54,866 nt of DNA from an uncultured Gemmatimonadales bacterium (GTDB taxonomy: Bacteria; Gemmatimonadota; Gemmatimonadetes; JACCXV01; JAHWKZ01). The stretch lies in assembly GCA_947259315.1 (NCBI GenBank), contig CAMYLR010000022.1, positions 1-54,866 of the forward strand, in the 5' to 3' direction. The number at the start of each line of letters is the position of its first letter. The stretch's first letter is position 1. Positions 18,288 to 20,945 of the stretch are shown here, piece by piece. The notes below the pieces were generated by a model that made no database searches, was not told where the DNA came from, and saw nothing but the letters and a program-made list of their open reading frames with translations. Both the position numbers and the translations under genes were made by a program.

Positions 18288-19703
18288 TCAGTAGTGGATC
18301 GCCTCTCCGTAGACGGCGTGCGCAGCCTCGTGAACGCTCTCGGACAGCGTAGGATGAGCGTGGATCGTGTGAATGAGCTCGGCCACCGTGCCCTCCAACC
18401 GGAGAACAGCGGAAGCTTCCGCGATTAGCTCGGTCGCCTTGTGGCCGATGATATGAACGCCCAAGACTTCGTCGTAACGATCTTCGGCGACGATCTTGAC
18501 GAAGCCGGCGGTGTGACCAGCTATCTGGGCTCGCCCACTGGCCAGAAACGGAAAGCTGCCGACGCGAACTGCGTAACCCTGGTCGATCGCTTCCTGCTCG
18601 GTGAGCCCAACGCTGGCGACCTCCGGCTCGCAGTAGGTGCAGTTCGGCGTCTCGCCGTACGGCACCGGCTGCACATCGTGTCCGGCGATCCGCTCGACGA
18701 CCATCACCCCCTCCATCGAAGCCACGTGCGCCAACCATGGCGTAGGGATGACGTCACCGATAGCGTAGACGCCGGGTTCCCCGGTCTCGCAGTACTCATC
18801 GATGACGATATACCCATCGTTCGTTTCGACTCGGAGGTTCTCGAGCCCGACACCCTCCGTCACCGGCGCTCTCCCGATCGCGATCAGGACGAGGTCGGCG
18901 GTCAACGACTCGCTTCCCAGCGTGACCTCGACGCCACCCTCCACCGGACTCGCGCCCATCAGCGGGGTATCCGTCCGGGCGTCTATCCCCTGGCGACGGA
19001 ACGCTCGGGCTAGCTCGGCCGATACGTCGTGATCCTCGATCGGCAACAATCGGGGCAGCGCCTCGACCAACGTGACCCGGGTTCCAAAACGATGGAAGAT
19101 CGAGGCGAACTCGACGCCCACCGCCCCGGCGCCGACGATGACCATCGACTCAGGAAGCGTCTCGAGCTCGAGGACATGATCGGAGCTGATGATCCGCCGA
19201 CCGTCAAACGGCACCGATCCGATCTCGCGCGGCACCGACCCAGTGGCCAACACGATATGATCGGCCGAGATCGTGCGTACCGGTCCTTTATCGAGGCCGA
19301 TCCTGCCATAGTCGGTCTTCTCGTAGATCCCCACGTTGCGAGGGCTCATGACCCGTCCCCACCCGGTGATCACCTCCACCTTCTGTTTCTTGAGCAAGCC
19401 GGAGACGCCGCCGGAGAGCTGCCGGACGACACCTTCCTTCCGGGCTTGAATGCGAGACCAATCGATCTCGACGTCGCCGATCGACAAGCCGAAATCCGAG
19501 GCCTCGAGGAGATCCCGGTAGCGACTCGCATTCTCGAGCAGCGCCTTGGTTGGGATACAACCCCGATGCAGGCAGGTGCCGCCCTGGAACGGGTCTTTCT
19601 CTATCAACGCAGTCTTGAGGCCCAGCTGTCCAGCGCGGATCGCGGCCACGTACCCGCCGGGTCCGCTTCCAACGATCACGATGTCGAAGCGATCTGTTGT
19701 CAC
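18288..19703 (-). CDS. lpdA: Dihydrolipoyl dehydrogenase (E3)
   Basis: 471 residues from GTG 19703, which overlaps the msrB stop by one base (TAGTG); a longer frame upstream is within msrB and not used. FAD site G-S-G-P-G-G-Y-V-A-A near residue 12. The redox disulfide is in G-G-T-C-L-H-R-G-C-I-P-T-K near 41. The NAD site is V-G-A-G-A-V-G-V-E-F near 190, and the second FAD contact is Y-A-I-G-D-V near 325. The C-terminal catalytic H-A-H-P-T-L-S-E is near 450. It reoxidises dihydrolipoyl groups of the E2 complexes and is the only E3 in the window, placed far from the E1/E2 genes. Its neighbour MsrB and the ArsC-like selenoprotein give this operon a thiol-redox theme. Confidence 0.96.
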   Translation of the reverse strand: MTTDRFDIVIVGSGPGGYVAAIRAGQLGLKTALIEKDPFQGGTCLHRGCIPTKALLENASRYRDLLEASDFGLSIGDVEIDWSRIQARKEGVVRQLSGGVSGLLKKQKVEVITGWGRVMSPRNVGIYEKTDYGRIGLDKGPVRTISADHIVLATGSVPREIGSVPFDGRRIISSDHVLELETLPESMVIVGAGAVGVEFASIFHRFGTRVTLVEALPRLLPIEDHDVSAELARAFRRQGIDARTDTPLMGASPVEGGVEVTLGSESLTADLVLIAIGRAPVTEGVGLENLRVETNDGYIVIDEYCETGEPGVYAIGDVIPTPWLAHVASMEGVMVVERIAGHDVQPVPYGETPNCTYCEPEVASVGLTEQEAIDQGYAVRVGSFPFLASGRAQIAGHTAGFVKIVAEDRYDEVLGVHIIGHKATELIAEASAVLRLEGTVAELIHTIHAHPTLSESVHEAAHAVYGEAIHY

Positions 19704-20107
19704 TACTCTTCTTCGTCCGGCCGGGGCTTGAAGTCGAGTGCCGCAGAGTTGATGCAGTAGCGTTGTCCGGTCGGCTGCGGACCATCGTCGAACACGTGCC
19801 CCAAGTGGGCTTCGCAGTTCGCGCACAGGACCTCGGTCCGGCGCATGAACAGGCTGTCATCGGGCGCCGTTGAGACGTTTTCCCCATTGGGCCGCGTGAA
19901 GCTCGGCCACCCGCTGCCAGAGTCATACTTGTCGTTAGAGTCAAACAACCGCGCCCCGCAACAAACGCAGGCGTAGACACCGTCCCCCTTGTGGTCGTTG
20001 TACTCACCGGTGAACGCTCGCTCGGTTCCCTTCTCGCGAGTGACGTGGTACTGCTCGGGGGTCAGCTTCTGGCGCCAATCTTGGTCTGTCTTTTCACCCT
20101 CGCCCAT
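19703..20107 (-). CDS. msrB: Peptide-methionine (R)-S-oxide reductase
   Basis: A 134-residue MsrB. The two zinc CxxC pairs are V-C-C-G (C-V-C-C) near residue 47 and C-A-N-C near 95. Substrate motifs are [10 protein letters not shown] and H-L-G-H-V-F-D-D-G. The catalytic Cys sits in Q-R-Y-C-I-N near 117, so this is the ordinary Cys form, not the selenocysteine form. It reduces the R-sulfoxide of methionine in proteins and is cytoplasmic (no signal). It starts 42 bases after the ArsC-like selenoprotein gene and overlaps the lpd start by one base. The short N-terminal extension is highly charged. Confidence 0.96.
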
Positions 20108-20149: not shown

Positions 20150-20491
20150 CTACGCAAGCTCAAGCAGTCTCTCGGGTGGTCGCCCGATGACCGCGCGTTC
20201 TGCCGCAACCCCGATCGGCCGTGCCAGCAAAGTCGGGTTTGCGGCCATGAGCCGGACCAGCTCAGCGTCCGACTCCTCCCCCGTGAGCCCCAAGCGCCGG
20301 TACGCCGGATCCCGCTTTCGCAATACGTCGACCGGCGTCAGGTTCAGCTTCTCGATTACCGCGCGGATCTCCTCCGCGCTCAACGGCTCTTCGGTGTACT
20401 CCCGATATCGATACCCGACTCCGTGCTCTCCCAGCAAGGCGACCGCCTTGCGACAGGTGGATCACGTCTTGCGACAGATCAGCTCAATCAT
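20150..20491 (-). CDS. ArsC-like thioredoxin-fold selenoprotein (UGA = Sec10)
   Basis: Read from ATG 20491, the frame is M-I-E-L-I-C-R-K-T, then UGA (20464-20462), then S-T-C-R-K-A-V-A-L-L and on to a stop at 20150: 113 residues. In the ArsC/YffB/Spx-like family the aligned motif is K-x-C-S-T-C-R-K-A, so UGA replaces the catalytic N-terminal Cys, giving U-S-T-C. The rest is typical (R-K-R-D-P-A-Y-R-R-L-G, then L-L-A-R-P-I-G-V, where the family has L-x-R-P-I). A perfect 7-bp hairpin with a GGUC loop starts 10 bases after the UGA, as expected for a bacterial SECIS. The start overlaps the DUF6174 stop by eight bases. Without readthrough, an ORF from 20437 would lack the active site. It probably acts as a thiol oxidoreductase; arsenate reduction is unproven. 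A pseudogene or sequence error is the alternative. No sel genes are in the window. Confidence 0.85.
20434..20451 (-). promoter_or_regulatory. Candidate bacterial SECIS hairpin
   Basis: Within the ArsC-like coding sequence, GCAAGGC (20451-20445), loop GGUC (20444-20441) and GCCUUGC (20440-20434) form a perfect 7-bp stem. The apical loop begins 17 bases after the UGA codon. Known bacterial SECIS elements put a small loop with an early G about 16-37 bases downstream of UGA, and the E. coli fdhF element has the same GGUC loop that SelB recognises. The stem also codes for R-K-A-V-A-L, so it is constrained by both roles. Confidence 0.78.
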
Positions 20492-20945
20492 CGGACAACT
20501 CCACGACCGTGATCGTGAGCTCGTCGTCGACGGCAGCCTCGATGCTGTCGATGAAGATCTCAGCCGGCGCACCGGTGTTTGAATCGTATGTGACCGTCAT
20601 GCGATCTGCATCGGACTCGATCGACTCCAGGATTATGTCGAACAAGCCATCGACGTTGGGAAAGAACACCGCGTGTTGTTCGGGTACCGGCATGCCGGTC
20701 TCGGTATACGTCTGGGACACGATCTCTCCGTTCCGCACGCGCACGGTAACCGGTCCGATCGATTCGATCGGGCAAAAGCAGCCCCTGAGCAAAGTCAGCT
20801 CGTAATCTGTCAGACCGAGATCGACCCAGCGCTCTCGATTCGCCTCGAGCTCGACCAGCAGCGGATTCTCAGGCTCTTGAGGCGAGCAGACCGCGGTCGG
20901 CACGATGATCAGCACGATCCACAACGAGGGCATTGCGCTTTTCAT
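20484..20945 (-). CDS. DUF6174-type exported protein
   Basis: A 153-residue protein with an N-terminal signal (M-K-S-A-M-P-S-L-W-I-V-L-I-I-V) and a Cys at residue 20 in T-A-V-C that could be lipidated, although the lipobox is not classical. The mature part has L-T-D-Y-E-L-T-L-L-R-G-C-F-C-P, V-T-V-R-V-R-N-G-E-I-V, then G-L-F-D-I-I-L-E-S-I and V-T-Y-D-S-N-T-G-A-P-A-E-I-F-I-D. This pattern (Y-x-x-x-x-x-R-x-C-x-C, then a beta hairpin and a Y-D-x-x-x-G-x-P strand) is that of DUF6174, whose function is unknown. The two close Cys (C-F-C) may form a disulfide. It is the first gene of the redox sub-operon, just upstream of the selenoprotein, which it overlaps. Confidence 0.8.
   Translation of the reverse strand: MKSAMPSLWIVLIIVPTAVCSPQEPENPLLVELEANRERWVDLGLTDYELTLLRGCFCPIESIGPVTVRVRNGEIVSQTYTETGMPVPEQHAVFFPNVDGLFDIILESIESDADRMTVTYDSNTGAPAEIFIDSIEAAVDDELTITVVELSDD

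Follow-up and report, generated by a model that had tools for sequence, protein, structure and literature searches.

Gene content of the locus

The window is the whole stretch of DNA that was analysed, 54,866 nucleotides of contig CAMYLR010000022.1 from the draft assembly of an uncultured Gemmatimonadales bacterium (GCA_947259315.1; 2.4 Mb, 33 contigs, 96% complete), referred to below as the host genome. Three genes on the minus strand are considered here: a gene for a DUF6174 protein (20484-20945; PF19671, E=5e-34), an ArsC-family gene predicted to encode a selenoprotein of 113 amino acids when TGA is translated as U (20150-20491; PF03960), and msrB (19703-20107; TIGR00357, 192.7 bits, over cut-off), which lies downstream of arsC across a 42-bp gap. 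The arsC reading frame starts with ATG at 20491-20489, and its first nine codons (MIELICRKT) are followed by TGA as codon 10 at 20464-20462 and then by STCRKAVALL; the frame after the TGA (STCRKAVALLGEHG...) is open to 20150. Cys6 (20474-20476) and Cys13 (20453-20455), both on the minus strand, flank the predicted Sec10 in a Cys-x3-Sec-x2-Cys arrangement, and Cys13 is a possible resolving cysteine in the UxxC motif. A hairpin predicted to be a bacterial selenocysteine insertion sequence (SECIS) element occupies 20434-20451 of the same strand.

The DUF6174 protein carries a signal-like N-terminus and is not part of the selenocysteine function. Its gene ends 8 bp inside arsC (ATGATTGA), and because of this overlap with the arsC start, translational coupling of the two genes is suggested. 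An earlier note, made from the sequence of the window without database searches, had described the upstream part of arsC as overlapping the previous gene; the overlap exists and amounts to just 8 bp (20484-20491). The same note had presented the product as a UxxC redox protein next to MsrB. Both the motif and the downstream msrB are present in the window, but their adjacency is not conserved in relatives: none of 21 related loci showed an MsrB in the flanks examined, and when eight window proteins were compared by tblastn with these flanks, some of which are short, ArsC alone matched. Long antisense ORFs, present in this GC-rich DNA, confounded a clustering of the neighbouring ORFs. No recognised ars gene adjoins arsC in the window.

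The in-frame UGA and the downstream hairpin

With the UGA translated as selenocysteine, the product matched the Pfam ArsC family PF03960 at 55.7 bits (cut-off 24; E=6e-15), and the UGA aligned with the catalytic cysteine of the ArsC fold. On the minus strand, the hairpin is formed by a 5' arm GCAAGGC (20451-20445), a GGUC loop (20444-20441) and a 3' arm GCCUUGC (20440-20434). The stem is a perfect 7 bp, the 5' arm begins after a spacing of 10 nt from the UGA and the loop after 17 nt. The published bacterial SECIS model (PMC13188914) places the loop 16-37 nt away, with 3-9 nt in the loop, a G in loop positions 1-2, a stem of 4-16 bp and a minimum free energy of at most -7.5 kcal/mol. With its 17-nt distance, GGUC loop, 7-bp stem and -15.5 kcal/mol (36 nt after the UGA), the element lies within all of these limits, as the earlier note had proposed for its stem, loop and distance.

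Across both strands of the window, 2 of 1543 TGAs, that of arsC among them, are followed at the right distance by a stem of 7 Watson-Crick pairs capped by a GG/GU loop of 4 nt, and none of the other UGA-plus-hairpin sites in the window, inspected by eye, joins a recognisable protein. Minimum free energy was dropped as evidence for the hairpin because it was not significant: the folding energy is ordinary both against shuffled sequences (z = -0.06) and against synonymous recodings (p = 0.55). The hairpin matched no Rfam family, and its DNA pattern had no match in the viral contigs searched.

Conservation of the UGA and the hairpin across homologues

Homologues were collected from genomes of the window's class and from GTDB contigs, yielding 22 members of one subfamily with the motif LICxxT[U/C]xTCRKAVALL. 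TGA stands at exactly codon 10 in 21 of them (the window and 20 further loci), and the remaining member, L039, has TGC (Cys). Both Sec and Cys homologues were recovered, with Cys also in more distant homologues, and together with the profile match, their alignment bore out the earlier reading of the UGA as occupying the catalytic Cys position of an ArsC-like family. The UGA forms come from Myxococcota, Acidobacteriota and Planctomycetota (one planctomycete) as well as from the window's own class, and most share 55-70% protein identity with the window's protein. Cys6 and Cys13 are invariant in the subfamily alignment, and the nine codons upstream of the UGA are conserved as MxELICxxT.

Codon identity was calculated over the 21 UGA members as the share of pairs with the same amino acid that use the same codon. 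At positions U+4 to U+9, it reached 97% (1182/1221). Outside the hairpin, it was 53% upstream of the UGA, 56% at U+1 to U+3, 33% at U+10, 48% (1724/3587) at U+11 to U+49 and 42% beyond U+49, such that the synonymous constraint stops at the stem edge. U+9 is UUG, one of six leucine codons, in nearly all UGA members. The hairpin sequence is almost unchanged across four or more bacterial lineages, and this DNA identity is not an artefact of the search, since the named loci were found by peptide patterns outside the hairpin.

Pairing was likewise maintained, with 98.9% of stem cells in the UGA members paired and one compensatory change, the replacement of A-U by G-C in L055. In L045, an A-U pair has become G-U, several other members have G-U at the outermost pair, and L057 has lost the second stem pair. 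Covariation alone is thin evidence, as 49 of 500 pair shuffles reached the observed score; the case is carried by synonymous conservation. In L039 (5001-5336; a Polyangiaceae genome), UGC replaces UGA and the peptide RKAVALL is identical, yet its codons include GCC GTG GCC CTG and the seven-pair stem is broken. L039 is nested within the Sec clade on the tree and is, by this placement, a predicted Sec-to-Cys revertant. These comparisons provide strong evidence for the predicted decoding as selenocysteine. With synonymous sites frozen in the Sec forms and the stem broken in the Cys revertant, the subfamily offers a clean comparative demonstration of a SECIS element.

Selenocysteine machinery and alternative readings of the UGA

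Genes for SelA, SelB (372 bits), SelD (366 bits) and a tRNA-Sec with anticodon UCA are all present in the host genome, so that the absence of machinery, which the earlier note had named as an observation that would count against its proposal, was not encountered. The SelD gene (L016:1501-2424, minus strand) itself contains an in-frame UGA in the active-site loop (CAGUASK), and SelD is probably likewise a selenoprotein. Within the class, SelB scored over its cut-off in 10 of 12 genomes that carry the window's UGA form. No SelB over the cut-off was found in G310 and G358, UGA genomes that are 81-82% complete.

Two readings of the locus dispense with selenocysteine. Under one, the UGA would be a misread TGC or TGT, or the mark of a pseudogene, and the hairpin a chance product of encoding the RKAVALL peptide. 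The reliance on a draft assembly and the unremarkable hairpin energy are compatible with this, but the same UGA recurs in 21 assemblies and in 14 members of a sister group (see below), which refutes an error in practice; synonymous sites are frozen in the hairpin alone, L039 retains the peptide although its stem is broken, and selABCD are present. This reading is extremely improbable. Only marginally less so is a true stop at the UGA, with a shorter protein initiating downstream. The ORF finder does return a 95-amino-acid ORF in the same frame from a TTG at 20437, but strand 1, the catalytic residue and Cys13 would all be missing from such a protein. Nor would this reading account for the conservation of the nine upstream codons or for synonymous sites being frozen near the proposed TTG start, a codon that also forms the UUG in the hairpin 3' arm. 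Codon 10 is thus almost certainly decoded as selenocysteine, and as judged from these comparisons, the gene is a real selenoprotein gene in which Sec is predicted to replace the catalytic cysteine of a small arsenate-reductase-like enzyme.

Family assignment and substrate

TIGR00014 (arsC) was the top family for the product, ahead of the Spx models, with a score of 84.3 bits (relatives, 83-96 bits) that lies below the equivalog cut-off of 106.05; the Spx regulator model TIGR01617 gave 57.4 bits, below its cut-off of 75.05. The AlphaFold model of the product (pLDDT 94.4) matched the arsenate reductase 3rdw best among PDB structures (TM 0.92), and it matched the E. coli R773 ArsC, a Cys12 enzyme (1I9D, 1JZW), with TM 0.90-0.91; Spx structures were also among the matches. 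Through alignment of L027 to 1jzw/1i9d, R58, R91 and R104, which are invariant in the subfamily, were found to correspond to Arg60, Arg94 and Arg107 of R773 ArsC, and all three residues of the R773-type anion site are therefore present. The window's protein differs from R773 ArsC in having Sec for Cys12, Cys6 for His8 and Cys13 for Ser15, lacks the C-terminal extension and shares 26-27% identity with it. In R773 ArsC, His8 lowers the pKa of Cys12. Cys6 occupies what we take to be the place of this histidine.

The window's gene encodes the sole PF03960 protein of the host genome. An arsR-acr3 pair lies on another host contig (L094:1084-2583) with no arsC adjacent; since the genome has this pair and a single PF03960 protein, arsenate reduction feeding Acr3 is plausible for the predicted enzyme. 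A search for a second host arsenate reductase returned an LMWP-family match that was rejected, as it looks like a tyrosine phosphatase (27.7 bits against a thioredoxin-type arsC cut-off of 174.3), and a second, partial LMWP match lies at L096.

The main competitor to an arsenate reductase accepts the selenoprotein and assigns it another role, as a thiol-disulfide or selenenyl-sulfide redox protein or a Spx/YffB-like protein whose arginines bind another anion or glutathione. The sub-cut-off TIGR00014 score and the Spx structures among the matches are in keeping with such a role, as are UxxC in place of CxxS, the additional invariant Cys6 at the His8 position, the lack of linkage to ars genes, the unconserved neighbourhood and the msrB downstream in the window. 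Against it stand the conservation of all three R773-type arginines, the ranking of TIGR00014 ahead of the Spx models, the arsenate reductases at the top of the structural matches, and the genome's arsR-acr3 pair without an arsC. We regard this competitor as a serious one that falls somewhat short of an even chance, and consider the odds to be balanced on whether arsenate is the main physiological substrate. For the reading as a whole, an ArsC-family selenoprotein with Sec10 at the catalytic position that most likely reduces arsenate, the substrate being judged from residues and fold, we estimate a probability of roughly 0.9.

Relation to known ArsC-type selenoproteins

ArsC-type selenoproteins have been described before, as the earlier note had said of marine metagenomes: a 2005 Sargasso Sea study reported 14 UxxS ArsC selenoprotein sequences, and the 2008 Global Ocean Sampling (GOS) study reported 77 UxxS ('ArsC 1') and 42 UxxC ('Arsenate reductase 2', cd03032) sequences. 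A 2006 report (Zhang) lists two sequences of a likewise bacterial, ArsC-like selenoprotein, from Desulfotalea and Desulfuromonas. ArsC-type selenoproteins are listed in 2022 and 2026 reviews, the latter placing the UxxS form under TIGR00014. In the literature searched, we found no report of experiments on a naturally occurring ArsC with selenocysteine.

The window's protein shares with the UxxS form the ArsC family, Sec at the catalytic cysteine, a bacterial SECIS and TIGR00014 as best family, whereas it has UxxC (Cys13 for Ser) and Cys6 and scores below the TIGR00014 cut-off. With the known UxxC form (NF041106, ArsC_rel_Se_1), it shares the ArsC family and the UxxC motif; the host genome had no NF041106 match at E<=10, and subfamily members scored 16-22 bits against its cut-off of 85. 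By its predicted residues, the subfamily joins UxxC to R773-type arginines, and it has no selenoprotein model in the NCBIfam library. On motif and NCBIfam models, the CxxxUxxC subfamily would be set apart from the GOS forms.

Sister group and distribution

A sister ArsC group with the motif YEKPT[U/C] occurs in the same class, with 14 U forms (L026, L027, L029-L032, L058, L060-L062, L064, L067, L073 and L074) and 6 C forms. The two forms are interspersed on the tree, which suggests repeated Sec/Cys exchange in this group. Many of its members carry a different SECIS-like hairpin (GAAGCU-CGUGA-AGCUUC). SelB scored over the cut-off in 14 of 14 class genomes carrying the group's UGA form and in 3 of the 6 carrying the group's Cys form, and four sister-group members tested against NF041106 were below the cut-off or gave no match.

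The earlier suggestion that the Sec form might be new in this lineage was not supported, as the gene is also present in other genomes of the class, in Myxococcota, in Acidobacteriota and in one planctomycete. The nearest sampled relatives (G001-G005; same genus, family and order) have SelB and lack the window's ArsC gene. Since the closest relatives are without the gene while distant phyla carry it, gene loss or transfer has taken place. Plasmid relatives, among the matches listed, were confined to Cys arsenate reductases or unannotated places of less than 60% identity.

Proposed mechanism and implications

In the proposed mechanism, SelB carrying Sec-tRNA-Sec would bind the GGUC hairpin 17 nt downstream of the UGA, and Sec would be inserted at codon 10. 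Sec10 would then replace the catalytic Cys12 where the first helix of a thioredoxin-like fold begins, and its selenolate, presumably without need of pKa help of the His8 type, may attack arsenate. Cys13 or Cys6 could resolve the intermediate as a selenenyl sulfide, recycling might proceed through thioredoxin, glutaredoxin or a low-molecular-weight thiol, and the arsenite product would be exported by Acr3. A bolder proposal, which we hold tentatively and think somewhat less probable than its negation, is that the Cys-x3-Sec-x2-Cys proteins make up a separate subfamily of Sec arsenate reductases that no model yet covers, in which Sec replaces the need for His8, the resolving cysteine permits recycling free of glutaredoxin and glutathione, and the SECIS is fixed tightly enough to dictate the RKAVALL peptide across several phyla.

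Ordinary gene callers, for which UGA is a stop, would truncate this gene and drop its active site, and therefore such genomes would seem to lack ArsC. The subfamily is a well-defined candidate for asking what benefit selenium may bring to arsenate reduction.
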